64,000 nucleotides of DNA from Bugulina stolonifera (taxonomy: Eukaryota; Bryozoa; Gymnolaemata; Cheilostomatida; Bugulidae). Positions 39,158 through 63,693 of the stretch are shown piece by piece (positions within the stretch are counted from its first letter, which is position 1; each line of letters begins with the position of its first letter). A program made the position numbers and the translations under genes. Location: contig OW285195.1 of NCBI GenBank assembly GCA_935421135.1, positions 14,708,158-14,772,157 of the forward strand, in the 5' to 3' direction. A model generated the notes under the pieces. That model saw only the letters and a program-made list of their open reading frames with translations. It had not been told where the DNA came from and did not search any database.

Positions 39158-42100
39158 ATGAAAGTGAAAAGCTCCCTGAGAAGTCTGTCTGTCGTGGCAC
39201 TGTTTGGATTCACTCTAATCTGGATTAACCTGAGTAAGTTATCTACTCTTTGCTCTACTGCTTGCTGTTGCTTACGAGAACTTTCTAAGGCAACTTTCCA
39301 AATTCAGCTCTATTGGGAGGTAGAGCGTCTTGGTGTAGCAATGCTAACAAAGATTTATAGCATTTAGAGTTATTGGCAGTGAAAGCACTCCACTCAGAAC
39401 TACCACCATTTCGTGGAAGTTTATGGAACATTTGTGAGATTAAAGGTTTTAGGCGATCACAATGATCATGAATTGTTAACACTATTAACAGTTAAAATCT
39501 TTGGTACATGGCGATTCCTTACTGAGTTGTAAACCCTTGTTTTCTAAATTAAGTGCATAAAATTGAGTTTCTATATTATTTGAGACCATAAACATTTCTT
39601 CGATGATAGCGGTGACATTATGAGACGTATTTTCAATATCTCTGAGGACATCGCGAAACTTGTGCATGTAAATACTAGTAACACGTACATGTAGTTGCAT
39701 TACGTTAGTTATCTATTGTGAATTGAATTAAGAACATTCTTTTACCAGTTATCTCCTTATTGTAAATTGTGCCAGACACCCTTTTTCGAGTTAGGTGCAG
39801 AAGTGGAGAAATTTGAGATAGCCTTTGTTCTTCGCCAAAAATGAAGCAGGAGAAGTTGTCTTCTCTATATTTTGCTGGTTGACCGCCCTTACCCCAAACC
39901 CCAACCACAAACAAGGAACTAAGGCTATCCAAATTTCTCCACTACTGCACCTAACAGCCTTTTTCTAGCAACTGTAATAATGTGTTTTTAAACCCAATAA
40001 CACTGGCAAATACGGAGTTTTCCTTGATGAGATTAAGGGCTAGTCCTGTAGAAAATAGGCAACAGTTTATTATGTAACCAGCATCCCTACACAAGATGTT
40101 TCAAGAAACAGCCGTTAGTACATGGCTGGATGTCTTGCTACTCATGCAATGTTACATTTATGAGAAGCCGGACAGTTGACCAAAACTAGCTCGGGTTAGC
40201 TGATAAAACACAGAATATGACACCAAAGCAGTGATTCACAGTCATGAGCCTTTTAAGAAAGATATTTAAACTGATATCAATTATGCATCTGTAGCAAGTC
40301 ACTATGGTATGTGTCAACTTTTAGTTTAGCACATTCTTTGGTTGATATCATTCTTTACAAGATAACAATGCTACTGAGCAAAGGCTATATTATACTCAAG
40401 ACTACTGTCCATAGCAGCAATCCTGTTTTAAACCATGCAGTCAAATTGGTAAGAAGAGTACTTTAGGAGAGGGCTGTTAGTGATGCAAATAGCCTGCCTT
40501 CTTGCCAAAATTGAAAGCATACGAAATCGCGTCGATCCATTAACCCCAACACCAATGATGAGTCTCGGTCTACAGTGCCACATTTGACGGAATCAAGGTT
40601 TAAGTCAGTCAATCAATCTGTTTAATTTAATTTTAGTTGCTTCAAACATTTGTAAATTGGCACACATGTAGAGTTATGTTGATAATTGAGTTTTGTCATA
40701 ACATTATACTGTAGTAGAGATAACAAACCTACAGCTTACAGTATGAAGTTAGTACCAGCATAAACTGTCATGGCAGCCTGTATCCAAGCTATTGTACGTG
40801 GCCAAACTCTATGTCAAGGCTCTCAGAGCTAGTTGATTTACTTGCAATGGTCTATTTCACTATTAAGCAGTTGAGCATGTGATGGTTCCCAAGTGATTTG
40901 GTAATCGGGTTTCAAGCTGTCACTTTCTATTCGGGAATTTTTTAAGAAAAGCCACAAATTCTGATTCTGACCAAGATGATGATATGGTGTTCTAGTCCAC
41001 CTGTTTTCTCTGGTCATATGGCATGACCCCCACAGTGAGCATACAAGATCCTACATACATCTAGTCTGATTGTTATTGTGTGTAATAATCCTAGTCAGTG
41101 TTTTTGCTTTGGCTCCCCAAACAGACCTTTTTGGCAGACGTTTTTACCCTATAGAATGTAGATGATGGTGAATTTGTCTAATATTTTCAACTATATTCTG
41201 TACCTCAGTTTTACCAAATTGAATATGGGCTCGACTTGTTCTGTGTTGGTTAAAGCTATCGATTTAGTCATAGGGTTGTAGAAAACTTTCTGGCCTTAGA
41301 GTTTGTTATTTACGTGGGAATAGGTAAAGAACACGACTTCTGATATGACGAATAACCATTTCTACTTTAAACAAAGTCTCTATAAGCTGCGCTGCTTGGT
41401 AGAAAAATAAATTTTAAATCTATCTCTACTTATGCGTTGTTGGTAAAAGAACGCTTTTAAAATGTCAGTTAGAAACAGGATGTTCCGAAAACTTTCTTTT
41501 TGAGGTTTGAACATTTTTGGAACATCCTGTTTCTAACTGACATTTGCAAACAGTTGCAAATTTGTTGCATTTGTGCCACAAGTTGTTAGGGACCACTAAA
41601 CACTCTTTGCTGTTGTGTCATGTCTGTTAACCAGAGCATTGTTTTTTGTTACACATCACTGTAAGATGCTTCTTCATTGTTAGGGATACACATGGCTACA
41701 TTCAGAACTCTATGCTGTGCATTGTACTGTACAGTGCAAGGAAGGCTGTAGGATATACACATGTATTAAAGTTATAAGTGAACTAGTTTAGCTGATATAG
41801 TGCCTCTCATCATCTAGCTATCTCTATCTCTGCATGATTTCAACAGCTCAAACTAGAGCAATAATTTATGGATTCCGAAATATCTCCGTTTCATAGAGGA
41901 AAAAAATACTCCTATAACTACTTCACAAATTATAATCGATTCGCACTCATTGGGTTCTATCAGTCTTTAATTTCGGATTCTATCAGTCTAAGAGCCTCTG
42001 CTCTCCTTTGTGGGCCTTCAGAAAATTGTGCTGTCACACTACCAGGCTCAGATGTGATTCTGAGTTCTAGCAAGGAAGTGCTCTTTACTAGTTCTAAGTA

Positions 42101-45100
42101 CAAAGTTCTTTCATATCAATCGGCAATCATGCAACTTAAAACAGCAATTGTTTCAGCAAGGCAATTAATGCTAAAAATAATGTCTATTAATTAACCTTTC
42201 TCTACATTTTTATGGCTCGTCCAAGGTTGTTAGTGGATTAGTTACTGCAGTAACTACTAGCTGGTATTTACTAGTTAGCAGCCATTTGTTGAGAATTGGC
42301 TCAAGCAATATTTAGCCAGGAATCCAGGTATTATGACAAGAAATGCTGGTCTATGGTTATGGACAGCATTTTATTATTCATACCCCTCTTTAAACTTAGA
42401 GATCATGGGTAAAACCAATTTGATTCTGAGCACTAGTGTGGTTGTCTTCCATTTCAATCACCATTTAATTTTGTATGAATTCTATTATTAAATAAATAAA
42501 CCAACGCCAAGGAAAATACATCATTATTCTAGGATTTTTCAGCATCAAATGCATGACATTATTACATGATGCTGTTGGCAAACAGGGAGACAGTAGTTTG
42601 ATTGGAGGGTTTATTCTTATTCCTGTAGTCACCATTTCCATGTTGACTTCATGTAAGTGTGGCGCTTGAAGTGGGTTAGTTTGTATGAACATATATATGG
42701 CTATTGACAGATAACAATCTACAGTGTATGTACTTCTAGCAGGAAGTAAATAGACTATAGTGTGACTGGAGCTGATTATTCAACTCTCCAGTGACAGCCC
42801 ACAGCAAGACTTCTATAAAATCATCAGGGAACCAGCCTTAGTACTAGTGCAGGCTACATTCTAGTTTGGGATGCGACTTCTGTGCCCTTCAAACTAAAAA
42901 TTTGCTGTATAATCCTGGCCACAAGCTCTATACTGAAAGGCGTGGAGTAAACACAATCATGAGATCAAACATTTTGCTAATAAATCGCTCAGGGTCCAAC
43001 GTTTCCATAGCACTGATGAGACCATAGCTCTCAATTTGATTAGTCAAAAAACCTGAGCCCATATACAGCATGTATCGCGGGGCGGTAGGAAAATATCCTA
43101 GGTGAGGCCGAGGGATTCACCGCTACTACGTAGTAACATGATATAACTTGATTTCAGTACTGATATTACGAACTCAACCATGCAATATACATGTATATAA
43201 AATACTATATAAACTAAGAATTTATATATCAGTATGGACTCAACGAAATGTAGGCCATTACAATGTTGGTGTTGGAAGTTATTAATGGAGTGTTTGCTGG
43301 TAGCCATGGTTACTTCTCTATTTTGATAGTACATCTACATAATATAAGCTGTAAGTTCTACTAGTTTTAATTTGTTGTCTTGACTTGGGAAAGGATTATG
43401 CATCATATTTTTCTCATTTGATACCAGCTTACATTGTATTTGTTGTTAGCTGCAATTTATGGAATGTACCTTATCGCATGCCAGTGAACAATACAATGTG
43501 CGTAATACAGTAGGTCTGCCTTTATACCAACAGTACATGCAGGTTCTAAGTGGTAAGACCACCACCAGGGTGGGCTGATGGCACACCGCTTAGGAGGGAG
43601 ACACTGAAATTTGGAGAAAACAACTTTTTAATACTGTCATCAGCTTATGGTCATGGTTGAGAACTGACAAATAAGCTGAGCCATTGCTGATCAGCCTGTG
43701 GTCCCACACTCCTGGCCCACTAATTAGAGCCAGTAAGCCCCCCCCCCTCTCTAATGAGAGGAGTACATGTAGCAGCACAATGGCTCTGAAGCTGGTTAGT
43801 CCTGATGATTGGTGAAGTTTTAAAACATTTTTGTTATGGCAAATTCACACAAAATACATTTTTGTTATAGCAATTTCATCGTAATGAATTTGCCTTGGCG
43901 AGAGAGCTGACACCATATTTATGACTTCTCATGACCTTATCAGAAGGTTTACCAGTATTAATATCACTATTTTATCAAGCTCTAGTGCTCAAGTTGAACA
44001 GCTTATATATGCTACTGCTAGTTTTCCGCTAGTGGTTATATTATACGTAGGCGTCAGAAGCACATGTATCTTACGACAGTTTATCATATGATATTCATCA
44101 CCTATCTTTCGATACAGTTTGATCCCAATGATTCCGTCCAGGTTTGTGGAAAAGTGTCTTCACTTGGCCAATTCACTGAAATTCCTGACAGTACCAATGG
44201 GGGCAATGACCTTAATGAGATTCAAACCCAGAATATCTTTGTATAAATATTTCTTATCATAATAAAGTTGGCGGCCATCTTGTATTTTGTTATTTTATTG
44301 TTTTAGCTGCGATATTCCACTCTGAATCATTTCGGACCAGTGAGATGGCTAAGAGGTCTATAAAGGGAAAATTCTCACATTCCACACTCAACAGCAATGA
44401 TGGGGGCGCCGACGTTCCCTCCCCTACTCCGTCCACAGAATCACCAACACCTAGCACAGCAGTTCCTTTACCTACTCCACCAGAAGTGAAGTTACCAACA
44501 TTCAACAATGAATTCTACTTGCTAACCATGCTCAGTATATTCAATGGTATGTAAGGAATGTTTTGAGAACTGACACAACTATGCTCATGGCTTCTGGTTT
44601 ACCACAACTTGCATTTCAAGTGAATATCTTTGATTTCTCACTTTGCCCAGTCACAAACTAAACAATGGAATGGGAAATAAGGGACCAAGGAAGGGCTTAT
44701 GAAGTTGAATTTGTAATATTCTGCTGGTAGAATAGAGGTTGCTTTCTCTATCTGATGATACAGTGTATTGTATAGGCTACCAGATGCGGAAGCATTCTTC
44801 TGCTCAAAGAGTCAAATCTGAAGGTTTTGCTAGTAGTTTTAAGGTCCTACCACTGCCGATCCATATTACACTCACCAGTCGATAGATAAGAGGACCACAC
44901 ATCAAGTGTAATAGTGTTGTTATCTTTCCTATAACGCACGAACCAATAATCATAGTTCATTTTTTCTAGATAATGTTTTATTTGTCTCCAACCTCTAAAA
45001 CCATAGCGCTAGATTGACGTACATTTGCAGTTGTCCCCTCTCTGTTATGATATCCCATAAATGGTTGCAACAGTGAGCCTTAGGTTACTATAGCCTTAAG

Positions 45101-48100
45101 TTACTAGTTGTCAACCAACAGAGCTAGTAGTTAAAACTGACGCCAACGTTACTGATAGAAGAGTGGGGAGTCCTCGACGCCCATAGTAAGGGTGGCTCTT
45201 CCTTTCCCCCTTAGCTGAGCAAGAATAGGAATTAACGAGTCATTCTGTTCTAGTCTATTGCATCATAACAATACTGAACCATCCTGATACAAGGAAGAGG
45301 GTCATGTGACGTCCTGTAAGCGCAGCGTCTAAGGTACTTGTAGCACTTACACGGCATTTGAACTATAATACTCAGTGTACTGAGCCTGGATTAATCGCAT
45401 TACCCATAATGCAATTGTTTTTGTAGGGGCAGCATGGTCTAAATACAAGGACTTCTCTCCCAAAGATCTAAAAGAAAGAGATAATGAATATTTAGAAACA
45501 TTAAAAGTTAATTCAAACAATGAGTATATCAGAGAGATTCACCTCTTCTATACAGATGATGAGTCTCTAGAGGTAAGGTCAAGGTCGTTTGTACTTTATA
45601 CCAAGCAGCTCGTGCCGCAAATACTGTTCTACCTTTCTGTTTAATAGCAGTGTGGGCAGAGGTACCACCGACTAATCTGTAACTTCTTTCTCTCTGTCAC
45701 CTTGTGCTTCTATGACCCATGTGTGGGCGGAGTTAGCGGGAGGTCTACGAACGAAATTGGAGGGAGGTTTGTGGACGAAATTAGTCAAACCAGTCATTCT
45801 ATTGAACTCTTGTTACACTAACTTAGATACACATGAAATATGCTGAAATGAAAGCTCAATTGTGCCCTATATACATAAGAACGAGCACGGTGAAGATGTT
45901 ACCATAGTTACTGGGCCAGCTTTTAGGATGCATCATGAATTTCTTTGGAATATACTGAGGTGCTTCCCGTTACCTGCCTCAGGTTTGTTGTCAGGGTTGC
46001 CTCCCGTATCTTCTGCCTTTCGGCTAACTCACCAACCCACCCAAGACATGCCCTTATGCTAAATGTACAAGATATGTATCTACACTTGCACCTTATGGAG
46101 TGTACATGTAGCAGTGCAGTCTAATAGCTTTGATGGTAGCTAATCTCCAATTAAGTACAATTAGGCAGTACTAACTAGAGATCTACTGCCAGCTACTTGT
46201 CCAACATGCACACACACATTTGTGTACTTGTTTCTGAGCAAGTTGAAATAAGCCTGACTAAACCCAGACAAACTAGTGGTACCCATGATGCCGTGCCTGT
46301 TCCATTCCTACAAACTACATAAACACTACAGTTTATGCCTATTTAGTATTACAATATTTACAATACTGAAATATCCTTAGACCTTATTTTACGGTGGCCT
46401 CATCTCAGAAATGAAAATAGGCATGATTGCCATAAAGTTAGCGCATTTGAGCATTTTTGAACCGATCCCGCCACTTTTTACTGTCACATACACGCCCTCA
46501 GGCTTTTTAGTCGCTGAAGCTACCCTCCAGACAAACTGATCACCCACTCCCCCAGCATTTTACTCGTTGCTTGATTAAAAATAGTAAATATTGATTGTTT
46601 TAAGATTATCTTTTAGATGACATTTAACCAGTGCTCAAAGTGTACCGGCTCGCTCAGGCTCGGCGAGCCTGTAAGAAATCGTCATGGCTTTCTTCTAGGC
46701 TCGCCGAGCCCTAACAATATAATGCGCCAAAGTTGGGTTTTCCCATACGCAGATGCTGGGAAAGTCGAAAACAATCAAGAGTCTGGCACGTTGCTCATAT
46801 GAAATCGCGTGATAGTATTAGTTTAACGACAAAGCTAAGGGCGCAGCAAAGTTGAGTAAATCCCCTTTTGGTCATCGTGATAAGCAATTGTAAATAGCTA
46901 GACCTTTCAGTGCAGGGAACAGCTTATGCTTTATTTCCGGAACAAGTTGAACTTGTTTTCTTTCCATACTCTTGAGTTTCAATCAGTAAATTACTAATTA
47001 TTTTTCACCGAAAACTATTGTAGCAGCTGCTCTTTATGCAGTCAAGTTTGCAAAGCTGATTAACTAAGTGAGTCAGTCGTTTTTAAAGTTCCAAAATGTT
47101 CTATGTGGCCCTGTGTACTATCTAATTTTCTTTTGTGATTTTTTTGGTAGTCATCATGATCATCCTTATGATGAGATGAGCAAATTGGATAATCAATCAT
47201 AATGATGATGATCATCATCATATGATGTATAAATATTAATATAATTATGATAATAATAATAAAATTATCATTGTTGTTAGAATAATGATGATAATAGTAA
47301 TTATTATTATTGCTAATTCCTAATAATAAAAATAGTAATTATGTAATAGTGGTTGTAGTAATGTAGGCCTCCTGTAGTGGTAGAAGTCAACGGCAATTTG
47401 TAAGGCTGCTGGCAGATGAGCTAGCAATATTTGTTTGGTGACTGTCCTGAGTTTCTGTCACTTTCTGTATTTTTTATTAATAATAAAAAATGCCCTTTTT
47501 GATAAACTATTATTATTATTAATGATATATGATGGTTATTATTATGAAAATTTTAATATTAATATTAAATATTAATTCATCTCCCAAATAAGTCATATCT
47601 TGCCCCTAAAATATACTTCAGCTTGCTTGTAAGATGTTGAATTTTTGAAATTTTCCGCTGCGCGGGCTAGGCGGGGGGTGCCCGCACCCCACCCCCCGCA
47701 CCCCCCTCCCACCCTATATCAGAGCCTGTAAGAACTCCCATACACTTTGAGCACTGCATTTAACACCGGCAATAACTCAATTACCCCAGCAGCATAACAG
47801 TATATCATGTGCTAGCGGTTTTTGATTGGACGCTAATACCATGTAGACTAATCTACAGCTACGTAGCGTACAATATACATTTATAGTGCCTGATAACATT
47901 TAATAAAACTAATTAGGCCGTAGTTCTATAATAATTGCATTACCACTGCTGATAGTGAAAGTAACAAGACTCCAATTTGCAAAAATTATCATAACATGAT
48001 AAAGTTGCTACAAACACGTTTTATTGAGTTAATATTTATACGATAATCAGTACCTCTGTGGATAGGCGTGCATCTACACTGTATGCTTGTATGTACACCA

Positions 48101-50021
48101 CAGCTTTGTTGATTGCATAGCAGCCATGTTTGTGGTTACTAACATATAGTTTTGATACTGTCTTACAATATTGTTTTCAAACATGGCAAATCCGCTGTCG
48201 AAGCCTGCACCCATATGTCTGTCTATATAATTTTGTTCTTTATTCTGCAGATAGTGAAATCGTTGAACCTACCCAACATAGATAAAATATATCCAGTTAA
48301 ATGGCATCGAAGGTTGCATATGGCCGACTTCTTTCTCTACGCATCCAGAAATTTAGTGAATAAATCAGTGATAGCATCAAATGCCGATATAAGTAAGTGA
48401 TAGTAACAAATGCCGATATAAGTAAGTGATAGCATCAAATGCCGATATAAGTCAGTGTATTGATCCTACATGTATGTATAATAATTTCTATACTGCAAGT
48501 TTATAAATTCTTAGAAATGTTATTATAATTTTTAGAGGAGCAAGCATTACTGTACAAAGGACAAATTTTGGTGTTTGAAATAATATTATTTTTAAAATTC
48601 ATTTGGGATTTACTACACCATCAAAAACTTCTATTACCACACATGTTTGGAACGACCTAGATGAATATGTGGAGACAACTACTGACCCTGTGTTTGGTGA
48701 CTGGGAATCCAGTGTTTGCTTTTCACTACTTTTTCCCAATTCATACAACTGTGTTTATCCAATTCTATAAATAGCATTAATTAGAGAACCTGTTAGACAC
48801 CTGCAGAAATTGACATTTACAGTTTTGGTCATTATTTAGTTATAGGTGGTGGTCTAAATCATATAGATACTGAAAGGTTGAGAGATGAGAGGGTTATGTA
48901 TTCATTGACTCGGCACAATATCATCAGAGGAAACAAGACTTGTACTCCCCTTAACTTGTGTACGGAAACCTACTACAGAGGTATTTTACATAAATAATCC
49001 AGCTGTAGCTACTGAGGCTAGCATCTGTAATTGTCTGTCTCCGGTAATAAATCAAGAAATGGTAAGACAATTCCTGTTTGTCTTTACAATATTGATTTTA
49101 TTACATTGTTAATAAATTTTGTACTGTATTATTGTTTTAATTTGTAGCGTCTCACGACACTCATATATTTAGACTAGCAGAACCACTGAACGAGACTCTA
49201 ATATTAGATAAACTAGATTATCCAATCAACATGTGGGGAGCCGAGAACGGTAAGACAACTCCTCCTTATATTATATGGTAAAATAGCCCATTATGTTTTA
49301 TTATATAACATGGAATTACATTGTGTTACACGGCACAACGAGCCTTCATGGTATTTTGTATAATGTATACCATTGTATATTTGGCTATGTGGTGAAGCAA
49401 TGGGTCGCATCGATGTACCCCAACCGTTGAGTGTGCGCTAGCTGTGTTACCAGACAATTTTGTTAGATACCTTCGTTTGATGTGGCCTTTGGATTTGCAT
49501 GTAGGTGCAGCGTACTGAACTATACTACATGACTCTATATATACTTTGGTTCAGTTTTGCCGGGTATAGTCTTATAACTACTCATGTCTCACTTCTAGTC
49601 TGGGGAGACGACCACAATCATTTTGATTGGCCAATGATAGGTAGGCTGTATGTGATGTACATTGGTTCACATTTCCCTTGTAGAAACTTAGCACTATTAA
49701 TATGATGTTATTTTCATTTCAGCGATGCATTGGACATTTAAATTTGAGCTTGACTTTGTGGTAAGGAACCCGTGTAGGGTTATATATACCCACCATAACC
49801 ATTGCTCCAAGGTTCATGGCCCAAGCTTGGAAAAAGTTCATAAACATAAATATTCGATATATTTCCTTCCGGGTAAAGGTTGGAACTTGAAGCGCGTAAT
49901 TGAGAGCTATAGTCCATTTGAAGACACTCTCCGCTATAGAGAAGCAGAGATGAATTCTACAATTAACTCAGTAGAAAGTCAGGCGAATTCCGTAGGTGCA
50001 GTTATTTCTACAAGCTCATAG
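39158..50021 (+). CDS. Glycosyltransferase-like type II membrane protein, paralog 1 (381 aa)
   Basis: Exons: 39158-39233, 44307-44546, 45427-45572, 48251-48392, 48840-48980, 49148-49249 and 49723-50021 (stop TAG). Phases are 1,1,0,1,1,1. Residues 1-8 are basic and 9-25 hydrophobic (VVALFGFTLIWINL), giving a signal anchor. A stem with repeated S/T-P-T-P follows to about 100. The conserved domain then shows IREIHLFYTDDESLE, KWHRRLHMADFFLYASR, N198-A-D200-I, SLTRH, SHDTHIF at 250-256, NMWGAEN at 276-282, and NPC at 298-300 with H307-N-H309-C310. In order and spacing this resembles GT-A-like sugar transferases in which N-x-D takes the place of a DxD metal motif (from memory, not searched). The four late Cys could form two disulfides, fitting the Golgi lumen. 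The exact sugar and acceptor are unknown. Exon 1 is 5 kb upstream of exon 2 and is the least certain part. Confidence 0.8.
39791..39954. repeat. Foldback repeat in intron 1 of paralog 1
   Basis: TTAGGTGCAGAAGTGGAGAA at left matches the inverse of TTCTCCACTACTGCACCTAA at right, with AGATAGCCT/AGGCTATCC further in. The 164-bp unit encloses a pyrimidine-rich loop containing AGAAGTTGTCTTCTCT. Confidence 0.8.
41460..41545. repeat. Perfect 26-27-bp hairpin in intron 1 of paralog 1
   Basis: The arm AATGTCAGTTAGAAACAGGA plus TGTTCC is followed, after a 32-base spacer, by its exact inverse. The perfect arms suggest recent origin or constraint. It could be a tiny foldback element or the stem of a small RNA precursor. 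Confidence 0.85.
46629..47756. mobile_element. Second hAT-type non-autonomous element, in intron 3 of paralog 1
   Basis: The ends CAGTGCTCAAAGTGTA and its inverse TACACTTTGAGCACTG are flanked by a perfect 8-bp duplication CATTTAAC (46621-46628 and 47757-47764). The length is 1128 bp. It contains a GC-rich palindrome GGCTCGGCGAGCC near the left end, ATT/ATG microsatellites in the middle and a G/C-rich stretch near 47655-47712. No transposase remnant was recognised. Confidence 0.9.
48368..48454 (+). repeat. 29-bp triplication across the exon 4 donor of paralog 1
   Basis: Three units start at 48368, 48397 and 48426. Each contains the exon end (CAAATGCCGATATAA) and a donor: GTAAGT, GTAAGT and GTCAGT. 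The first donor (48393) is the one that matches the paralogs. Using the second would shift the frame by 29 bases. Confidence 0.9.
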
Positions 50022-50202
50022 CACTACTGAAAGCATGCAGCAAGTAGTTGTTTGCTGAGATGCTTCATACAGCTGCTGACAGCATCTAACAGGTGGTTGT
50101 TTGCTCAGGTGCTCCATAGCAGGTTCCCATGTCAGTCCACATCTATATTTCGCTATTTATTGTTTTACAATCAGGTAACCAAAGTACGCCTGAATTTTCT
50201 AT

Positions 50203-50208
50203 AATAAA
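50203..50208 (+). promoter_or_regulatory. Poly(A) signal, paralog 1
   Basis: AATAAA lies 182 bp after the stop. A second copy at 50285 is an alternative. Confidence 0.55.
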
Positions 50209-51063
50209 AAGCTCCATTTTTTTAATTGATTATGTTCTATTCACCACGAGTTTATTTTTATGCACATAAAATGTATAGTTTTATAATAAAATATTCTCTT
50301 GCCAACTCAGTGTTTATTTGTTATATGCATGTATAATATTAGTCCACTTTCACTATCTAGATTTCAGCTTTTTGTTCGTTTTTTAGTTCAACAGTGTCAG
50401 GTGTTTAGTTCAGTTTTACTGGTGAAATTCCTCTTGCTAATAAAATTGATCAGTGTTCTGTCCAAGAACTATCATAGCAGAGTTGGACAATAACAAAGGT
50501 ACACGCTATTAACCTAAGCGTATACACTGGAACAGGCAGTACAAGGGAGAAGAAATTCACATTCAATAGTGGTTTTGTGACTGGATGGTTCTTTACTGGT
50601 GGTTTACATCTAGCTTATAGAGCAATAAAGTGGAATGGCTTGATGTACTACAACAACCAGTTACAGACCCGCTAACTGCAATACATAACAGACCACATTA
50701 GATAATTATTGACTGTATAGGTCGAAGTTGTCCTCTCCCGATCTGTCCAGCAAATTGGGAGAGGATAACTTCAGTAAAATTTGGCGACCTGTTACAGCCA
50801 TCGTCACATATATATTGTGTTTAATGTTATTTGTCCATTTATTTGTTGCAAATGACTTGTGAATTCTTACAAATAACATACGATCTATTTAGCTATGCAT
50901 TGCATCACACGTTGTGCAAGGAGTAAAGTGTTTCATTAGAAGGTCTTCATTCTGAACAGCGGGCCTACTAGCAAAGTTCGAAGTGGAAAAATTGAGGTGG
51001 GTACACGGTAAATGCAATCTCACAGATTAGTATTGTATAGCTATCCACCTAATCTTATGGTAG

Positions 51064-51104
51064 CTAAGAAATTAGTGGATTACTAAAATCCACTAATTTC
51101 TTAG
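51064..51104. repeat. Perfect 17-bp hairpin
   Basis: CTAAGAAATTAGTGGAT and its exact inverse are separated by seven bases. It lies 200 bp before the Tc1 relic and may be part of that element's decayed end. Confidence 0.8.
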
Positions 51105-51307
51105 CCACTACGCTAGCAGGTCCACAGCAACTGTGTGGGGAAAACAAGCTATTAAAATGAGGGTACACGCTTGCTGGCCGTATAACCACTAAAATTGAGG
51201 TGGGGACACCGTATACTCCTGTATGACCACACGTCGAACACTGCCTACTAGCGTGGACCAGAAAGTCGTTTTGTTCAGAAACAAGAGCTTGCATAGTTGC
51301 TTTAGCC

Positions 51308-51849
51308 GGTGAAGGTTACTCTGAAAGGCAACTGGCTAAAAGATGTGGGTGCAGTAAAACAGTTGCCCATGGATGCATTGCAATGAATAATTAAATTAAA
51401 AACTTTTTTCTGATCGGAAGCGCTCAGCGCGACCAAGGGTCACAACAAGCCGTGAGGATGGAATCATGCGTTGGATTTCTGTTCGATCACCCTCCTGTTC
51501 CTACAAGAAAATGCACGCACATTTGTTAAGGAGTTTTCCAAAGACAGTTTAAAAGCAGTCTCGCACTGACAGCTTAGTCAAAGAATCGTAATCTCGAAAA
51601 AGCAAAGCCACGGCTCACATTAGCAATCCTCAAAAAGCGTTGACATAGAAGTTCTGCAGTAGCCAGGTGACAGCCTTGGCCTCCAGTCACTAATGAAAGA
51701 TAAAAGTGGTAGAAAATATATTTCAGCTGATAGAAACCATCGAGTCAGTGCGGGTGAAGGAAATTGGCAAGGATTACTGCTGTAAGCCAGTGGAAAGCAT
51801 GCCGAGACGGCTAGAAGCCGTCATCAAAAATGAGGGTGGGCACAGAAAA
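51308..51849 (+). pseudogene. Decayed Tc1/mariner transposase
   Basis: The left part reads GYSERQLAKRCGCSKTV, the helix-turn-helix start typical of Tc1 transposases. A middle part keeps KPRLTLAILKKR. The right end reads VESMPRRLEAVIKNEGGH, the characteristic Tc1 C-terminus. Stops and frameshifts separate these pieces. At about 540 bp against roughly 1 kb for a full transposase, the DDE catalytic centre is mostly deleted. It is an inactive relic. Confidence 0.85.
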
Positions 51850-52212
51850 TGTTGACAAAATATGCATATAAATGGATGCTGAGATGTTGTAATGCTCTAC
51901 CTAGATATAATTTTACAAATTATCTGTGGTTAATTTAAATAGAACATTCTCATAGCCATTAATCATGTAAAACTCTATTTCCGTTAAATAATGAAGGTGG
52001 ACAAGGACTGTAACTATAACACTAGCTTGTGTATTGTTGGCTTCGCGTTGTAACATAACATAAAACGGAATGGTATCAAATTATTCAGTTCTTCATTCAC
52101 CACTAAGCAAAAGCTACATGTAGCGCGAGGCATTGGTAGAAGTACGTGACTTGTAATTGTAATAATGATGGGAGTTTCACCCTATATTTGTTGCTATTAA
52201 CGCTAGAAAGAA

Positions 52213-55200
52213 ATGGTGATGTGGATGATGAAAAAGCTGAGACCTGTAGCTGGAATTAGTGCTGTAAGCATGTTAGTACTTTTAACATGGGTAGTCCATC
52301 AAGACCCCAGTGACCACAATCACAATGAAGGTAAGTGAACAAAAGTAAATTGTTAATGTTCAAATCTATTGAATTGTAATTGTTAGTAAAGTGACTCAGC
52401 GAAATATAATATTTTTGCCCCAATTAATTTTACCCTGTGGGGGTGGGGGGAGAGCCAGAGAAAAATGATTTCACTGTCTATAGCTGCTTCAGTGGTTGAG
52501 GCATTCAAATGTCTTAAACATGATGCTCACAGTCGCTTACCTCCATTGTCAATGTTTAATGTCCATAGACCATAAGATTAAGATAATTTTGCGTAGAAAA
52601 TTAAATTTGATTTGAACAGTTGTAGTATAGTTTAGTAGCTGTAGATATTATTTTCTATAGCATTTACTGTAGAACAGGCTATGTGGGTCAAAGTTTATTT
52701 AATTTTAGTTATCCTGGTGTCTTCTAGTTTATGTGCATATGATATGCTTAGACTATCTATAGCCTGAGGATATGTAATTGTTATTGTAGTTACAAACCAT
52801 TACTCATGCAGATGTGTTACTGGTACAAATATGAAGTGTTAGTATAGAAATTAGATTTAAATGTTTAGGGATATGAACCTACATGCTACATGTATATACA
52901 TGCATACCTGTCAACTATCCCGATTTGGGCGGGACCCTCCCTATTTCAAACTCTCACTCCCACTAGCTCCCTATATCCCTATATCCTCCCGATTTCAGGG
53001 CATCAGGTTGGGATTTTTCACTTTTGTATTATCTAATATCCAATAGCCAAGATTATCCAATAAATAGCATCGAATTAATACCCTTGTTCAGTCTCATTTC
53101 ACTCCATCTGGTATTTTGATACAGCTTTGGAGTTATCAGCTACTACATAGCTTATATTGCGCATGTGGTAGCTAATTTACATGTCTTACTGATTATGTCT
53201 AAAGATCATGATTAGTGCTGTGATAACAATGAAGCTTGGCACCCATACTCCCCTCCCCATGGTTCCAACTCTTCAAATGTATTTTTGCAGTTGGTAGCTA
53301 AGGTCGTGAAAATTTCACCTGTGCACCCGGAAGTTGGGACTCCCTATATTTTTTCACTCCAGGTTGACAGGTATGTATACATGTACATGTAAATGTATAT
53401 CATTTGGGTTACCATGATCTGTACACGTTAACCAATAAAAATGTATGCAGCAGGCAGTACCGTGAAAGTTGACCTCCTGCTCCAAAAGATGCAAATAGCT
53501 GGCAACTAAACTTACATAACACTCTTATACAAGGGCACCAATAACCTTTTTTAGGAAGATAAATTGGGAGAGGACAATTTCTAATTATGATCAATAGCTT
53601 ATTAGTGCCCATGCTCTTATAGAATATCGCTATTAGCTATATTCTAATGAAACTGCTGATAGTAAACCCTGAATATATATACTATTATTTATAGTTTTAT
53701 CCACTACATAACAAAAGCCAAAACTTTAAAATGACCTTTATTGATGCATTTTTAGCATTATTGGTAATGGTTACATTTGGTTACATTATGATAATGTAAA
53801 AGAAAAAAAATTAGGAGCTTCTCTGGTTGGCCAAATAGATTCATATGTACATTATATAGATTATAGACTGTAAACCAGTTGAATGTGTACATGGGCACTT
53901 GCAAGCTATTGATCATAATTAGAAGTTGTCCTCTCTCAAAAGAACGGAAAAGAAAAGGAGAGAGGAAAACTTCTAATTATGATCAATAGCTTATGAATGC
54001 TCATAGTTGAGTATCTGTAGACTCTGTTCCCCACTTATGGCTACAGCCGATACTCAATTATATTGTCCCCTTTCATTCATAGGGAGAAACTCTACAATCA
54101 AACGAGAACTTAGCATAGACTTACTGTTTGGCTACGGGAGATATTTGCGTCAGAATAGTACAGATTTAAGATCCGATGTGTACAGTACACCCGTCACAAC
54201 AACTGGAGGCAGTATGACGGTGTCTGTTTTGGGCGGCTATCATCTGTTGACCATGGTCAGCTTGTTCAATGGTATGATTACAGTAGTGGTTGGTTTCCTT
54301 GTACACTGTAGCTAACCCAATAGTATGCTAGATGGTATATACCGAGGAATTGCCATACATAATATTTGATGTAGGATTACTACTGTTAATGCACACGGTT
54401 TATTACAATATCTATTAGCTTACTTGGTACAATATCTATTAACTTACTTGGTACAATATCTATTAGCTTACTTGGTACAATATCTATTAGCTTACTTGGT
54501 GCACAACATAGTACTCAGAGTTGATAAAAATGACAACATTGAGTTTGAAGTAATAATTATAAATATAACCTACATGTATATTTATCATTGTTGTAATTGT
54601 TCTCAGTGTGATTTAGTTTTATATACTGTGTGCTCCAAGTAAGCTATTAGACATAGTTGAAGTCCAGAGCCTGTCTTATATTCTTACAAGACGAGTTTAT
54701 CAATCCTCCTGTACCTCTGAGGAAATACAACAAATGAAGAATAGCAATAATTAGTTTAATTAATTTAATTATATTAGACGTGTAGAATATTAATATATAC
54801 ATGTGTTTCTACTGTTTTGTGTTCTATGTTTTATGCTCTATATGAATGTCACTTACATGTGACACTCTACGCCCCTTTTCTTGCAGGAAATGCAAGCAGA
54901 GGTTATGAGAATTTCACATCAGAAGAGTTAGGAGGAAGAGATGGAGAATATCTGGAGACTCTGAAGAAGAACTTGAACCATGACCAGGTGGTAGCAGTAC
55001 ATCTGTTCTATATAAATGATGATGACTTAAAGGTGAATACAGCAGTTGTCTCCTCTATATATACAATATGATGGTGACTTAAAGGTGAATACAGCAGTTG
55101 TCTCCTCTCTATATACATGATGATGACTTGAAGGTGAGTGTAGTAGTTGTCTCCTCTCTATATACATGATGATGACTTGAAGGTGAATACAGCAGTTGTC

Positions 55201-57226
55201 TCCTCTCTATATACATGATGATGACTTAAAGGTGAGTACAGTAGTTGTCGCCTCTCTCTATGCAATATCATGATGGGATTTGGGGTTTTACACGAGGAAA
55301 CCTTAGAACCTACAAACAGCTCCATAGTGCCATAGAAATTACAGGTAGTTCCTTGTATTTTATGCTCTGCCTATCTCACAGACAGTGAAAGCGTTGAATT
55401 CATCCAACACGGATAAGATGTATCCAGTCAGATGGCATCGGAAGTTGCATATGGCTGATTTCTTCCTTTATGCATCCAGATATCTAGTTGATAAACCAGT
55501 GATAGCTTTGAATTCTGACATAAGTAAGTACATGTCGATGACTTGTCACCCAATGTGACCATTGCTTGTAACTGTAGATATAGTAGTTAATTTACAGCAG
55601 TTTCGTGTCAGGTGTGGCCTGTTGTTAATGATTAAATTTGGTAAAACTCTCCATATTGGTAACATAGTCAAAATGGTAAATTATAACTAACTCTCTCCCT
55701 ACAGATATACATGTAAAATACATAAATAGTATATTTATCTATAGTTATTTATTAATTCTATGTTTCTGTGATTTAGTCATAGGTGAAGGATTAAATGAGA
55801 TAGACACAGAGAGATTAAGAGACGAAAGGGTTATGTATTCGTTGACTCGGCACAATATCATCAGAGGAAACGAGACTTGCACTCCAGTTAATATGTGTAC
55901 TGAATACAGATATATAGGTATGTGCTTACATAGTAACCTATGAATACAGGTTAGTGCGGGGCGGTGTTGATTTGCACCTGCATTCATTTTTTTGCTATTT
56001 TAAAAAAACTCAATGATACCTAAGTTGTCGTTTACCACTCGGCTTAATTCAGGGTTTTAATTTTCGGAAAGAGATCGAATCGTTAATTTCATGCTTGATT
56101 TTGAGAGTTGTCTCGCTCCGCTTTTGCCTATAATTGCAGCCTTCTTTATTTTGTTTACAATAATATAGACTAATTTTGTCCAAAATTATATTTCCTTGGA
56201 TTAGTCTTGGAGTTAGGCTTCTTTTATGTTGTTTGAAGGCTAGTTTGCCAGCTTACATGTACTTAGCTAGCCCACAACTAAAACACCACAGTGGTCATTC
56301 CTCCTCTACACCAGCAGGAAGAAGGACATATTTGTTTTCACAAAATTATAAGTACTGGGTAACAACGATGATTGCAGCTAAGTCTGTATGGCAAGGATGA
56401 CATCGGATTATAATGATTGAAAAGGGCACAATATGCATTCGCCTGTTTGCAATCCTGGTCGTTACCAGAAGTGGGCACGCTGAAAGAACAGATGCGATTT
56501 GAATTTAAAAACCGAATCCTATCGAACCGTCTATGCGGCTTCGGTTGACATTTTGAAATTTTTGGAACCGAGAGAAAAAGCTGAAAACTGAATGATGCTG
56601 AAACACAGTGCAGCACTAGTATACATGTATATCTGTTGGCACAGTGTTTACGCTGTAGCCTCTGCTCTTTACTCTATATTGATATCTATTTGTCCTTCAC
56701 CTCTTGTAGGGTCCCACGACACTCACATATTTAGACTGGCAGAACCACTGAATGAGACTCTAATATTAGATAAACTAGATTATCCAATCAACATGTGGGG
56801 AGCCGAGAACGGTAAGACAACTCTTTGTATTATATTATATTACATGGTAAGATAACTCCTTAAACTGCATTATGGTACCAGGTATATTGCAACAGAGTAC
56901 TAACCTAATAATAACTTTATTTTATTTCAGCGATGCATTGGACGTTTAAATTCAGTCTTGGCTTTGTGGTAAGGAACCCGTGTAGGGTTGTATATACCTA
57001 CCATAACCATTGCTCCAAAGTTCACGGCCCAAGCTTGGAACAGGTCAAAGAGCATAAATATTCCATCTTCTTTCTGCCCGATAAAGGATGGGCTGTGGAG
57101 CACGTTCGAGCAAGCTTCAGCCCATTTGAAGACGCTCTCAGCTATAGAGAGTCGGTGAACTCTACGATCAGCCCAACAGAGAATCTGAGAAATTCTACAG
57201 AGAAATCCACCACCGCAAGTCCTTGA
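52213..57226 (+). CDS. Glycosyltransferase-like type II membrane protein, paralog 2 (377 aa)
   Basis: Exons: 52213-52330, 54083-54271, 54887-55032, 55382-55523, 55777-55917, 56710-56811 and 56931-57226 (stop TGA). Phases are identical to paralog 1. The N-terminus has MKKLR followed by a hydrophobic span (GISAVSMLVLLTWVV), then His-rich DHNHNE, so it should be a type II anchor. The stem (exon 2) is shorter than in the other two paralogs. The conserved domain has AVHLFYIND, RWHRKLHMADFFLYASR, N195-S-D197-I, SLTRH, SHDTHIF, NMWGAEN and NHC. N-S-D-I is the form I remember from bacterial GT-like proteins with the same motif order. It is closest to paralog 1: the exon 6 products differ only in the first residue. 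Exon 3's own donor is a weak GTGAAT followed by four near-copies. Confidence 0.82.
52903..53375. mobile_element. 473-bp DNA transposon with CATACCTGTCAAC ends, in intron 1 of paralog 2
   Basis: The terminal inverted repeats CATACCTGTCAAC/GTTGACAGGTATG are flanked by the 8-bp duplication TATACATG (52895-52902 and 53376-53383). An 8-bp duplication fits hAT or P superfamilies. CTCCCTAT and CCCGATTT words recur inside near both ends. No coding remnant was seen. Confidence 0.85.
53533..53610. mobile_element. GGGCACT foldback element, short copy
   Basis: GGGCACCAATAA at left and TTATTAGTGCCC at right enclose GGGAGAGGACAATTTCTAAT. One arm is largely deleted. It is related to the copies at 27566, 53893 and 57899. 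Confidence 0.75.
53893..54002. mobile_element. GGGCACT foldback element, full palindrome
   Basis: The left arm has AAGCTATTGATCATAATTAG and AAGTTGTCCTCTCT. The right arm is the inverse and ends AATGCTC. The 110-bp unit is a nearly complete hairpin and ends 80 bp before exon 2 of paralog 2. Confidence 0.8.
54405..54500 (+). repeat. Four 24-bp tandem repeats in intron 2 of paralog 2
   Basis: The unit is ACAATATCTATTAGCTTACTTGGT, with one base change in the second copy. Confidence 0.95.
55018..55260 (+). repeat. Minisatellite of about 50 bp that repeats the exon 3 donor of paralog 2
   Basis: Five units each contain the exon end GATGA(T/C)TT(A/G)AAG followed by a donor, with donors at 55033, 55085, 55134, 55183 and 55232. 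The real first donor is GTGAAT; the third and fifth are GTGAGT, a better consensus. Reading past the first donor meets an in-frame TGA within 40 bases. Confidence 0.92.
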
Positions 57227-57714: not shown

Positions 57715-57898
57715 ATATTCAGTATATTTCTAGTTCTTCCATGGTATGTAGCATGCCTAGCTAACATTACATGTCTGCTTTTACTATACTGTGGCTGGCT
57801 ATAAATAACTATTAATTTATGCTTAGATAACTGGAAACGTTATCAATTCCTTGTAGCCCTAGACCATGTGACTATGTTTGACAATGGCCACTCATAAG

Positions 57899-58000: not shown

Positions 58001-58700
58001 TTGGTTGCTGCGCCGCCATCAAGCAATATGTTATAGATAACACAACATTTGCTAAGTTCTGAGGACAAGCACTCACTGCTAAATTTATATGCACAGGCCA
58101 ATTTGCCTTTTCTTACTTTGTGTTCTTAAAAATGACCACATATATATACGCATGTGCCGGTCTCTCTGATTCCACAGACAGGAGACTATTATTTTCAACT
58201 CAAAATCTTGCACCGTATCGAAACTAACCACCCCCAACCCAAATGCTGAATCACTATGATTTTCACCAATGAAGCTTGGCACATGCATGTATAACATTAA
58301 ACAAGTCTACGATATTATGTTAATTATAGTTATACAATACAATTCAAGTAGCAGCACATGCTACTTGTAGGCTTTAAGTAAATAATGAATATTGCCTGAG
58401 TAACTCACCGACAGCTAGTTTGCTGGTACATCATCAACAATGCCCACTGATTGTTTGGAAGGCTTTTGAAACTCAGACTAAGGGATGAGCATGAGCATGC
58501 AGAATGGATAACAATAGATAATTGTCTTATTGCATTGATTGTCCTGCTTAAGGTAAAAGACAATATTGATTAGTAATTTAATATTTTAGCATTTTTTAGC
58601 CAATTGTTAGTTTGAGTGTATATTCTAATGGATAGACTTACTGAAAACTATAATTCATATTTTCTGTTTTAATTTAGGCTAATAATACATGTAGAAAGAC

Positions 58701-61700
58701 ATGACACGATGCAAACTAACAAGGCTGCTGCAGCTAATCATATTTATTATAGTCTGGATGGTATTGGCGGAGGTAGCTAGGGGTAAGGCAAATACTCTAA
58801 TATTGTGTACAATGTTTTAGGTACACATATCTATGTGCTGTGTGGTGCTGGTGCCATATGAAAATATCTTTGTGCTGCAAAGTCTTCATGCTTTCGATAT
58901 AAAATTAACAGCACTAGTTCCTTGATTAGCCATTTAGGCAGTTGGGTTGGGGGTGTCACCATCTTTATAGTTAGCTTAGAAATTTTACCTGAAAATGGTT
59001 TGGTGTGTGATGTAACAATGTGTTATATGAGTACAGTGAGTGTGGCTAACCTGATACTCTGCAGCCCTTGTTATAACTAAAATTGGGGGTTTTGGTATTG
59101 TCAGTTATAACATTTAATTGGAGCCAAAGTACTTAGGACTCACCAGCTGTACGTAGTATGTAGTAGTAGTACGCTGTCTGTAGGTCCTTTTGTCAGCACC
59201 TTGATCTCCAATGTAGTAAGCTGTGTGGCGTAGGTTCTGGTTCTGTGGTCTAGGATGTGGCGGTGTTGACTCTATTCCAAGGTCTACAACGAGATAGTTG
59301 TTCCGCATATATCCTTACTCCTTAGTACGCATTGATATGAGTTACTGGGTAGCCTACGATCCACCTACACTCCACACGCTCCACACTATTGTAGTTTAGT
59401 TTAGTTTTTAGTGTTTTTGTTTTAGTGTTTTATTGGTTTTTATTTGGTTTTCTATTTTGTAGTTTTTCTTTCATTTTCGTGTTTTACACTAGCTTATACA
59501 TTTGTATAATATGTACGTGTAACGTCTATGTAGTCGTCCACTCTTGTCACTATGTGACTTATCTACAGGTATGTCGACAGTCTATACTGCTGTCTCTCCA
59601 TGCCTCATTTTCACAGTCTACTCTAGGTATCTGTCTATCTATCTCTCTACTGAGACTACTCTACTGTGTATGTACTCCTCTCCTATATATACCTGTCCTA
59701 TCTACAGTCAGCCAATCAATTTTAGTGAGGAGTTACATTCTCTCAAGTGCGCAAGAGTGGACAACTCTTAAATATACTAATTGTCACTATTTATATGCAA
59801 CACCCTTATAGCCTAAGTACTCAGATTCAAGTCCCACTCACTCATGTTAGCTCAGCTCTGCGGCAAATCTAAATAAGCATTTTTTAAATTCAGTTATGCA
59901 CATTTGTTGAACTGGATACACATTTAATCTTACTTACATGTAATTCACTGTCCCCACCCCCCATGTTAGCCATATTGAAACAATCAGCTATAAAATATCG
60001 CTGTGACATAATGCAATCTTCATCAGCCTAAAGCTTGTATATTTATATTGATGTTAGCGCTGGAACCAAGGCTTAGTAGGGTACGAGATGCCCCTTTTAG
60101 GTCCTGCCAAATATCCCGATTACTTGCCCCTGTTAATGCTAGCTGGGTGTACATGTACATGTACATGTATGTATGTATGTATGTATGCATGTATGTATGA
60201 AAATTTGTGCTATAAATGTAGCTCTGGAAACCTTCCTAACATCACCAGGGAACCACAGGCTTCAAATCCGGGATTAGTGTTGGAAACTAACTCTAGCCAA
60301 GATTGCTGCTACTCCACATCCTTAATTTATGTGTGTTACAGATAGATTTGCTGATCAGCGAAAAATCTATCCCACTACTCAGCGGACAGCTACCAGGAAA
60401 GCTGTCATTGTGCAAGCTACAAGACCTAAACCACCAGCCCTGAGTCCACCAGCTCCTATTAAACATACTTTGACATATCATTATACTACCACTAACACCA
60501 CCACCAGTCCCACCTCGACTAACCCTGCATCAGTCAAAGTGCACGGTGGTGTAAATAGCACGTCAAATAAATATTATGTGATGACGATGCTCGGCATATT
60601 TGGGGGTAAGACTCCACTTTCTTTACTTTCTAAGTTATAATCACCTCTATATAGGCTATCTAACAGAGAACTGTCAGTTACTTTGTGCTGTGAGAGGACA
60701 ATCATTAAGGCTTGGAGGTTTAATTCAGTGCCAACCAATGGGAATGAAGTATCCTACACGTACATTGTAGATACTTGATGTCAATCAAAATTTCTAATTT
60801 TTAAATACATAATAAAATATTTAAATAAGCTACCTGGCAGGTATCACTAGAATGACCAAAATCTGTTTTCAAGTAGGAATTTTTCTGTACGAAACTGAAA
60901 GATGTTCCAAAGTTCTGTGTTACCGGCCCCGGAATAATCTGTAAATAGTTTGTCCACGAACCAATGAATGGATGATTAAATCTTTGCATTGGGCTCTGTA
61001 CTACTACTAGTTAGTTATTCACTATTTAATAGAAATGTCAGAATTATTTTGGCATACACGGTCAATCTAAAGCTACATGGACACATAAGTAAGTGATTGA
61101 GTAAATATTGAGTAATGTCATACATTTACATTGGTATTCCAGGGAAGGTATGGGAAGGGTATGATAACTTCTCATTAGCTGACCTGGATAAGCGTGATCA
61201 GGACTATATAGACACACTAAAGCATAATCTCAATCATCCATTAGTACAGCAGATTCACTTGTTCTATACTGAAGAGAGGACGTTTCAGGTATATATATTG
61301 TTATACAAATACATAATATTACTGTATATTGTATAAATTCCTTGCTAAAAATACATTATACAATATATAGAAAATGGCCAAACCCCCTAAAATGCATATT
61401 ATATTCATCATTCTCTTTTGAGTTGCTAGTACTATAAACATCAATTTACATGACGTAATGACTTTTGAAGTTGCTCTCTCGTTTCCCGATTAGCTCCTGG
61501 TGACCCAAGAAAATGTAACAGTACAGGGCCAGGGAAGCTAAAGAGTTAGCTTTATAGTAGTTGTCATATGTTCTTGTTTTTATTCTGTAGCAAGTTTTGG
61601 TCTTCAAGCTCGCAATTTGCTTGTCTGGACTTTTTTTTCGAATAACTAACTGATTGAATTACTGATGAACCATTTGACATGTTTATTTGCATGGTGCATG

Positions 61701-63693
61701 CGTGAGTAAACTGTGAGGCAATATGCAGATGTGTTAGCCCTGATATGTTCTTGTACTACAGGTACAGGTAAATAGTTTTAACTAGGACACAGAGAGTAGT
61801 AGAATACCTACGGCTATATTCTAGTACTCTATTTCTTCCTGTTACACACACCCTCTTGTTATTACACATACAGATATTTGTTTCCGCCCATAGATTGCGA
61901 GAGATTTTAAGCTGAAAAACTGGCACAAGGTTCAACCTGTTCATTGGTATAGAAGATTGCATATGGTCGACTTTTTTACATACGCTTCTGTAAGGCTGTT
62001 GAACAAGACTGTGATAGCCATGAACAGTGACATCAGTAAGTGCAGTGCTTTACTTGATTTTGATGAAATGAAATTTAGTTTTATACTTTGGTGATTGTGA
62101 CAGATAGGTTGGGCTTTACCCAAAAAGTGAGTGGAGAAGACAACTTCTCCTGCTCAAATTCTGACAAAAGACAAAGGCTGTATATATCAATAACAATATT
62201 TACATGTTGTATAGTCCAGGCTTACAAAATCTCCCTGATTCTGCAGGAGATGCCCTGAGTTTGAACTCAAACTTTAGTAGCCCACCCCAACAAAACAAAA
62301 CACCCCCACCCAAATTTGAATCTCCCTGATTTTCTTCAGTGGAACTAGATAGCCTAAGGTCCTGCACCTACCTATAACAATAGACTGTTGTGTAATACAG
62401 CAATAGCTGTGACCTAGTAATTACTAGTGGTAGCATTGGGTAGGGAGTCATCGTGTCGGCTGAATTAGGTATTAATTTGTCTACAGGGATTGTCTGTTCA
62501 GTCGTATTTAAATTTAAATTGTAGTGATCGGAGAAGGGTTTGAAAAGGTGGACACGGAGCGATTGAGAGACGAGAAGGTTATGTTTTCTCTAACCAGGCA
62601 TGCCTATAACAGCTCAAAGAATAATTGTTCGATTACAGCTGTCTGCTCCCGACTATATCAAGGTAGAATGGATTTACGGAACTTTTATATAATACATGTA
62701 TAGGTGTACATCATATTATACGGTACATGATGTATTTATGTATAATATACATGTATTTGTATACTCATGCGTGTTCAGCTATTTATTGCAGCACTACACG
62801 CTCATGATATCATCTCAGAACAGACAATATTTTGCATCTAGCCAAGCATAGCCTAACTTTGCCAAGTTGCCTCATAAGAATAAGAAAATATTTTAGATTA
62901 CGTGAAAACGTTATGTCATTCCGTTTCAGGGTCACATGATACACACGTGTTCAGACTGGCTGAACCTTTGAACTCACACTTGTTAAAGCAATACCTTAAT
63001 TATCCGATTAACATGTGGGGAGCAGAGAATGGTAAGTTGACAATCTATATTTACTTAATATAATTGTCACATGGTAAGATAACTCCCTACACTTGATAAA
63101 ATTGTCACATGGTGGGACAACTCCCTACTTAATATGATAGTCACATGGCAGGATAACTCTTTACAGTTGCTATAATAAATGCATGGTTTAGTAACTTGAT
63201 CCTTAGAATTCAATGGATGGATTAAGTAATCACATGGAGTAAGCAAATACCAAACATTACTAGCAATTTGCAGCTGATATTTAGTGTGTGCTCAATGTAG
63301 GAGTAATCTGCTCTTACTCATACAATAATTTTTTAGCACACCATCATGTGCTCCCCTTGTTATAGTACATGGCTTTTTACTCTACATTGCATTGTGTTCA
63401 AATTCCTTGCAGGGTTAATGTTTGTCTTCAGAGCAAAGTTTAAATTTGTCGTTAAGAATCCATGTGGTGTTCTGTACACTTACCACCGCCATTGCTCTGA
63501 CGTGCATGGGCCCCGATATGAGAAGATAGCAGAGAGCAAATATCACATAAAATATCGTGGGTGGACGAGGGAACAAGTTTTATACAGCCGAGCTTTCTTT
63601 GAGGACACTTTAACTTATGGAAATAGTGACCTAGATCCTGTAAGGGTAACACGAGGCCGTTTCACTGATGGACCACTACCTATGGCTGGGTGA
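58701..63693 (+). CDS. Glycosyltransferase-like type II membrane protein, paralog 3 (384 aa)
   Basis: Exons: 58701-58782, 60342-60605, 61143-61288, 61894-62035, 62525-62662, 62930-63031 and 63413-63693 (stop TGA). The phases match the other two genes and exons 3, 4 and 6 are the same lengths (146, 142 and 102 bp). The N-terminus MTRCKLTRLL leads into a hydrophobic span (LIIFIIVWMVLAEVA). The stem is the longest of the three and is rich in Pro and Thr (TTTNTTTSPTST), a likely O-glycosylated spacer. The conserved domain shows QIHLFYTEERTFQ, HWYRRLHMVDFFTYAS, N208-S-D210-I, SLTRH, SHDTHVF, NMWGAEN and HRHC. It is clearly more divergent than paralogs 1 and 2 but keeps every motif, which argues that the motifs are functional. 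Substrate unknown. Confidence 0.82.
60149..60199 (+). repeat. TACATG/TATG microsatellite
   Basis: ACATGT repeats change into a TATG run in intron 1 of paralog 3. TACATGTA words are common through the window. Confidence 0.85.
63061..63163 (+). repeat. Three degenerate tandem units after the exon 6 donor of paralog 3
   Basis: Units of TCACATGGTAAGATAACTCC with variants (GGTGGGACAACTCC, GGCAGGATAACTCT) repeat about every 48 bp. Each carries a donor-like or near-donor sequence 30-120 bases after the real donor at 63032. Confidence 0.75.

Follow-up and report, generated by a model that had tools for sequence, protein, structure and literature searches.

What do three neighbouring genes encode that share one exon plan and one series of motifs? 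This question is raised by positions 39158–63693 (+ strand) of a stretch of 64,000 nucleotides from the bryozoan Bugulina stolonifera, hereafter the window, which spans 14,708,158–14,772,157 of contig C9 in a genome of 234.95 Mb (contigs C9, C7 and C5 are chromosomes 9, 7 and 5). Genes 1–3 of this cluster very probably encode type II glycosyltransferases that reside in the Golgi and belong to an undescribed GT-A family, a reading supported by the predicted fold, homology, genomic context and predicted topology. The family, which went unrecognised in Pfam and NCBIfam searches, ties predicted animal Golgi enzymes to the glycan machinery of phages and bacteria. To our knowledge, bryozoan glycans have been little studied.

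Three tandem genes share an exon plan and six motifs

The cluster extends from the initiator ATG of gene 1 at 39158 to the end of the gene 3 stop codon at 63693. The initial annotation had described three genes of seven exons apiece, with identical intron phases and six common motifs, and both + strand translation and splice models bear this out: HLFY, N-x-D-I, SLTRH, SHDTH[IV]F, NMWGAEN and HxHC are found in all three genes. Downstream of exon 1 the exons join cleanly across GT-AG introns, each gene has a single stop, and with the chosen first exons the intron phases are 1,1,0,1,1,1 throughout. An anchor exon is followed by one stem exon and five core exons. Core identity to gene 1 is 73% for gene 2 and 53% for gene 3, and matches also came from annotated proteins of Bugula neritina and Watersipora subatra. 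These core identities, the recurrence of the core exon series in 12 further copies and the annotated bryozoan matches argue that the pattern goes beyond chance.

An N-terminal anchor and a Thr/Pro stem had also been proposed. The anchor is predicted by hydropathy, the best 19-residue values being 1.79–2.19 in genes 1–3 and 1.83–2.61 in the bryozoan homologues P0001–P0006; the stem is readily seen in genes 1 and 3 and faint in gene 2. Among relatives, a hydrophobic anchor was found in 6/6 bryozoan homologues scanned and in 2/5 coral-type proteins as called.

Predicted fold and active site

Structure prediction gave a GT-A (Rossmann-like) fold for both proteins modelled, one a Bugula homologue and the other a prokaryotic/viral member, and glycosyltransferases rank first when either is compared with VIA-align, in keeping with the GT-A-like character suggested at the outset. 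The best match of the animal model is GalNAc-T2, with 9–11% identity in the best structural alignments; the prokaryotic model matches a chain of the CHSY3-CHPF complex best.

The GT-A core, as described in PMC7185993, comprises a DxD motif, an xED motif at a helix start and a C-terminal His. Seven residues (N161, D163, R189, D215, N261, H270 and H272 in P0001 numbering) are invariant in the 77 rows chosen for comparison. N-x-D occurs in 77/77 rows directly after strand 156–160, keeping the second Asp of DxD and replacing the first with Asn, and an HxH near the domain end, again in 77/77, supplies the C-terminal His, for which metal binding is predicted. The A-E-N step opens helix 243–254, and from this helix-start position the [A/C]-[D/E]-N step would correspond to the place of xED. 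Position 244 is D in 62 rows, E in 14 and Y in 1, and position 245 is N in 68, Q in 7, S in 1 and G in 1; the xED Asp, the base of inverting members, is kept in 0/77. The same paper describes this Asp as the base in inverting GT-A enzymes and as variable in retaining ones (PMC7185993). Because it is replaced in every row, a retaining mechanism is weakly predicted, and on these residues retention would be somewhat the likelier of the two.

We propose that each protein would be anchored by a single membrane helix behind a short tail in the cytosol, with the variable stem placing the catalytic domain in the lumen. There the GT-A domain of about 220 residues would bind a nucleotide-sugar and transfer its sugar to an acceptor that is secreted or lies at the cell surface. 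N-x-D, at the DxD site, would bind a divalent metal and the nucleotide, HxH would hold the metal-binding C-terminal His, and S-[Q/H]-D may contribute to the active site. Secreted or cell-surface molecules of the animal are the probable targets of such a family.

A different reading grants the GT-A fold but takes the bryozoan proteins to be catalytically dead, serving as lectins, chaperones or transferase partners. The N-x-D in place of D-x-D would suit it, as would a paralogue at C9 13.509 Mb that lacks HxH and the structural match of the prokaryotic model to the CHSY3-CHPF complex, in which CHPF is a partner subunit. Such a loss of activity is nevertheless unlikely, given that the Asn, the Asp, both His and the Asp of S-x-D are unchanged in all 77 chosen rows across animals, phages and bacteria, and that non-synonymous divergence (dN) lies well below synonymous divergence (dS) between genes 1 and 2 (dN 0.18 and dS 0.89 by NG86; 0.21 and 0.58 by YN00; dS was not estimable for either pair involving gene 3).

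Family libraries and alternative assignments

Animal glycosyltransferases are mostly sorted into a fixed set of families. The libraries compared here were Pfam, NCBIfam and PHROGs. No Pfam model matched genes 1–3 at E ≤ 1 or five relatives at E ≤ 10, PF00535 included, and no NCBIfam model matched genes 1 and 3; the view that no named animal family carries this signature is upheld to that extent. In the 63-row alignment A10, one row gave one Pfam match (a tail-fibre model, E 0.0073) and three NCBIfam models each matched a single row (best E 0.00035); these models are of unrelated kinds, and we take the matches as chance. PHROGs returned weak matches only, to families of unknown function, and nothing meaningful came from sequence searches of solved structures, whether the query was gene 1, the bryozoan profile or a wide profile. 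No account of the family was found in the titles and abstract openings of open-licence papers; 'undescribed' accordingly refers to the libraries and literature searched.

Could the genes be diverged members of a named animal family, namely GT27, GT7, GT31 or GT64? The run WGAEN...NPCRV...HxH resembles the Gal/GalNAc-T motif of polypeptide GalNAc-transferases, and GalNAc-T2 is the top structural match of the animal model. GT27 and the other families would be expected to match PF00535 or their own models, which neither genes 1–3 nor the five relatives do, and the non-animal sequence relatives that were found are phage and bacterial proteins. The metal motif also differs, being DxH in GT27 according to PMC7185993 and NxD here. 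We regard such an assignment as improbable. Least probable of all, and only slightly entertained, is a nucleotidyltransferase of the RmlA/IspD type or another GT-A-like enzyme that makes nucleotide-sugars and does not transfer them, as the RmlA and IspD Pfam profiles found no match among genes 1–3 or in the 63 rows of A10.

Relatives in corals, bacteria and viruses

The search beyond this genome that the initial annotation had called for yielded relatives in corals, bacteria and phages or other viruses. A first protein search gave five matches, all bryozoan (Bugula EB796_006937, 59% identical, and four from Watersipora). A profile search gave 18 proteins, adding further bryozoan and coral-type sequences (one from Acropora muricata), the protein P0017 and the fragment P0018. 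The two protein searches, which required shared 5-residue words, named only bryozoans and one coral as animal taxa. With P0017 as the tblastn query, two records were recovered for Synechococcus phage S-SKS1 and two for a 735-kb phage; among viral contigs P0017 as lone query found no relative and a profile of the animal proteins plus P0017 found one (L003). Onward searches reached 65 viral contigs, two contigs from bacterial assemblies and, at E ≤ 0.1, 459 proteins, the taxonomic spread being judged from the 120 of these 459 that were listed. One of the bacterial-assembly contigs encodes a protein 88% identical to the S-SKS1 protein and may be phage. The alignments A8 and A9 took in 54 of the 119 new proteins listed, without P0007–P0009 and P0018.

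The usual motifs of the phage and bacterial relatives are N-[AST]-D-I, L-[ST]-R-[WY], S-Q-D-x-W-I-F, G-x-P-G-C-D-N and H-x-H. Profile-profile comparison of the bryozoan core gave a probability of 98.5% against three bacterial/phage sequences and 99.7% against eleven (a set that includes P0017, itself found from the bryozoan profile), compared with 0.2% and 0.0% for two unrelated control alignments. The bacterial signature named in the initial annotation (NSDI, LTR, SQDxWIF, G-x-D/E-N, YHxH) is real. Corals scored 99.9% against the bryozoan core and 98.4% against the three bacterial/phage sequences.

Protein SWZG_00036 of S-SKS1 resembles the bryozoan family in its NADI, LSRW, SQDSWIF, GCDN and HFH, but has SQD for SHD and an HxH without the following Cys. 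The coral-type proteins (P0014 of Acropora muricata, and P0010–P0013, P0015 and P0016, which are 66–87% identical to it) have 30–35% identity to the bryozoan core, four shared Cys, SHDAWVF and HYHC, but show NADC and GIEQ variants. Some coral-type open reading frames run unbroken across the core, as they would if coral genes had fewer introns than bryozoan ones, although these contigs may be transcripts or reflect spliced annotation. Three viral entries of BFVD match the prokaryotic/viral model, A0A6J5PQ76 (uncultured Caudovirales phage), A0A6G8MYH0 ('Glycosyltransferase', Cedratvirus kamchatka) and A0A5B8IQ41 (Mimiviridae sp. ChoanoV1); since their TM-scores (query) are 0.69–0.86 at 25–35% identity, these modelled proteins are probably family members. 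The shared signature, N-x-D, L-S/T-R, S-Q/H-D, D/E-N and H-x-H, lets many hypothetical proteins be annotated.

Two of the sequences stand apart. P0017 (229 amino acids) lies between animals and prokaryotes/viruses, having HNHC as animals do, S-M-D and three of the four animal Cys; its called reading frame has no anchor, and its source organism could clarify the origin of the family. In a viral protein of 678 residues at L039:1612-3645 the domain occurs, by eye, at least twice in tandem.

Glycan genes beside phage and bacterial relatives

Several relatives are fused to glycosyltransferase and GDP-sugar genes or neighbour them. In the 735-kb phage the domain lies inside a single protein of 1122 residues together with GT47, Nucleotid_trans and GT25 domains. 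The S-SKS1 gene overlaps a nucleotide-sugar epimerase gene, and genes for GDP-mannose dehydratase, GDP-fucose synthase and a fucosyltransferase lie within about 15 kb. By eye, the family gene on a Chitinophagaceae contig follows genes resembling a Wzm/Wzt polysaccharide exporter and precedes three glycosyltransferase-like genes. On a Salipiger plasmid the domain forms the start of a protein annotated as exostosin, with gmd, a GDP-L-fucose synthase gene and a GT10 gene nearby.

A wider scan of neighbours covered 136 of 189 open reading frames of at least 130 amino acids at 27 of 37 loci (26 viral contigs and L004), with the best 25 of 96 families considered; the neighbours of L005 were read by eye. 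Among the matches listed, 7 reading frames matched GDP_Man_Dehyd and 4 each matched GT2, GT47 and group-1 transferases. AAA and methyltransferase models were also present among the 96 families matched, and all these counts stand without a background rate.

Fifteen copies in the genome

With the Bugula homologue P0001 as query, the whole genome gave 72 exon matches, and exon profiles run on the fetched regions identified 15 copies with all five core exons. Beyond the three in the window, five lie at C9 14.772–14.808 Mb (two of them on the − strand), three at C9 14.456–14.493 Mb, and two at 13.503–13.513 Mb, while C7 and C5 hold a single copy each. The five lie at most 36 kb downstream of the window edge, so this stretch of C9 carries 8 copies, and the set of three first described is too small. 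S-H-D is retained in 15/15 copies, and HxHC and NPC in 14/15 each; a script found the expected donor phase after core exons 3, 4, 5 and 6 in 13, 15, 14 and 14 of the 15. The copies provide concrete candidate enzymes for assay from one bryozoan.

Two copies look decayed. At C9 13.509 Mb (L112, C9 13507000-13515000) Q-N-Y-C replaces HxHC, and at C9 13.503 Mb (L111, C9 13501000-13508000) the last exon is split over two frames.

The animal branch and its origin

Animal members are marked by cysteines and by the middle residue of S-x-D. All 13 animal rows of A8 have the four cysteines, found in 0/13, 2/20, 5/63 and 0/63 of the filled prokaryotic/viral rows, and have S-H-D, whereas all 63 others have S-Q-D. 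Read by eye, the 15 genome copies all have the first Cys and the Cys after HxH, and 14 have that of NPC; the second is present in 10, missing in 4 and uncovered in 1.

In an IQ-TREE analysis of 84 rows, bryozoans, corals and prokaryotic/viral sequences each fall on one side of a branch (100/99, 100/99 and 100/98), and one branch (100/98) parts the animals and P0017 from 53 prokaryotic/viral rows. In the tree gene 1 groups with P0001 of Bugula (96/81), and the partner of the C7 copy is P0006 from the same genus (99/93). Part of the set is thus older than the divergence of these bryozoans; separate expansions seem to have produced the C9 arrays and the Watersipora set. The cluster had been suggested to encode a lineage-specific set, a description that may fit the tandem expansion but does not fit the family.

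The animal branch and the pool of bacterial and viral sugar-transferase modules would have a common origin. Animal members are set off by the anchor, the stem and as many as four extra cysteines, and tandem duplication in bryozoans would have led to the 15 copies. A direct transfer from giant viruses was considered. The tree is unrooted, was built without P0007 and P0018, takes its prokaryotic rows from the top of the list, a biased sample, and has no known giant-virus row, so that it fixes neither the donor nor the direction or number of transfers. Tentatively, a sugar-transferase module circulating among phages, giant viruses and bacterial polysaccharide gene clusters might have entered animals and been adapted to the Golgi by gaining a membrane anchor, a stem and cysteines that form disulfides. 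It would then persist in colonial animals such as corals and bryozoans, multiplied in bryozoan tandem arrays whose glycan products differ from what better-studied animals make. Since corals and bryozoans are both colonial and calcifying, a tie to calcification or allorecognition was also considered, and is left as speculation.

Exon models of genes 1–3

First exons are script candidates chosen by hydropathy, phase and splice signal, and measure 76, 103 and 82 bases in genes 1, 2 and 3. For gene 1, 39158–39233 (phase 1 donor; 17-residue hydropathy 1.94) encodes the putative type II anchor and is preferred over 42553–42652 (2.23) because it opens with a short basic segment, a feature shared with genes 2 and 3; with the following residues its 19-residue hydropathy is 2.07. 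The candidate anchor exon of gene 2, 52228–52330 (2.28), uses the sole donor in 50030–54080, at 52330, that yields a hydrophobic phase-1 exon, and has four candidate ATGs, the additional in-frame ones being at 52213, 52219 and 52225. That of gene 3 is 58701–58782 (2.61; rival 60088–60190, 1.76).

Exon 2 encodes a Ser/Thr/Pro-rich stem and the core start in gene 1 (44307–44546, 240 bases), the stem in gene 2 (54083–54271, 189) and a Thr/Pro-rich stem in gene 3 (60342–60605, 264). Exons 3, 4 and 6 have the same lengths in the three genes (146, 142 and 102). Exon 3 carries the HLFY region (45427–45572, 54887–55032 and 61143–61288 in genes 1, 2 and 3). Exon 4 carries the N-x-D motif, as WHRRLHMADFF...NADI in gene 1 (48251–48392) and NSDI in genes 2 (55382–55523) and 3 (61894–62035). 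SLTRH lies in exon 5 (48840–48980, with two Cys; 55777–55917; 62525–62662; 141, 141 and 138 bases), and exon 6 combines NMWGAEN with SHDTHIF in genes 1 (49148–49249) and 2 (56710–56811) and with SHDTHVF in gene 3 (62930–63031). Exon 7 (299, 296 and 281 bases) ends in the stop codon and encodes NPC and HHNHC in gene 1 (49723–50021), YHNHC in gene 2 (56931–57226) and YHRHC in gene 3 (63413–63693).

Short intronic tandem repeats in gene 1 (48380–48455) and gene 2 (55030–55240) start as copies of the upstream exon end with its donor site (N-A-D-I and D-D-D-L-K, respectively), and create several possible decoy splice donors.

Other features of the window

Three further features were recognised by eye. 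On the − strand, 12739–16752 is an open frame of 1337 residues resembling a Ty3/gypsy-type retrotransposon polyprotein, with zinc knuckle, reverse transcriptase and integrase-like stretches. On the + strand, exons at 17644–18849 have a chordin (CHRD) repeat-like translation, and an exon at 36109–36453 has an end that resembles a CUE ubiquitin-binding domain.

Comparison with known glycosyltransferases

Polypeptide GalNAc-transferases and chondroitin synthase subunits are among the closest known systems. Compared with the polypeptide N-acetylgalactosaminyltransferases (GT27; GalNAc-T2, PDB 4d11 and 2ffu), which have D-x-H where N-x-D stands here, the bryozoan proteins have HxHC, no PF00535 match and no lectin domain in their reading frames. 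Chondroitin synthase structures gave no sequence match to gene 1 or the profiles in the search of solved structures; set beside these synthase subunits (CHSY3-CHPF, 9q8z; E. coli K4CP, 2z86/2z87), with their bifunctional polymerase layout, each bryozoan protein is a single GT-A module.

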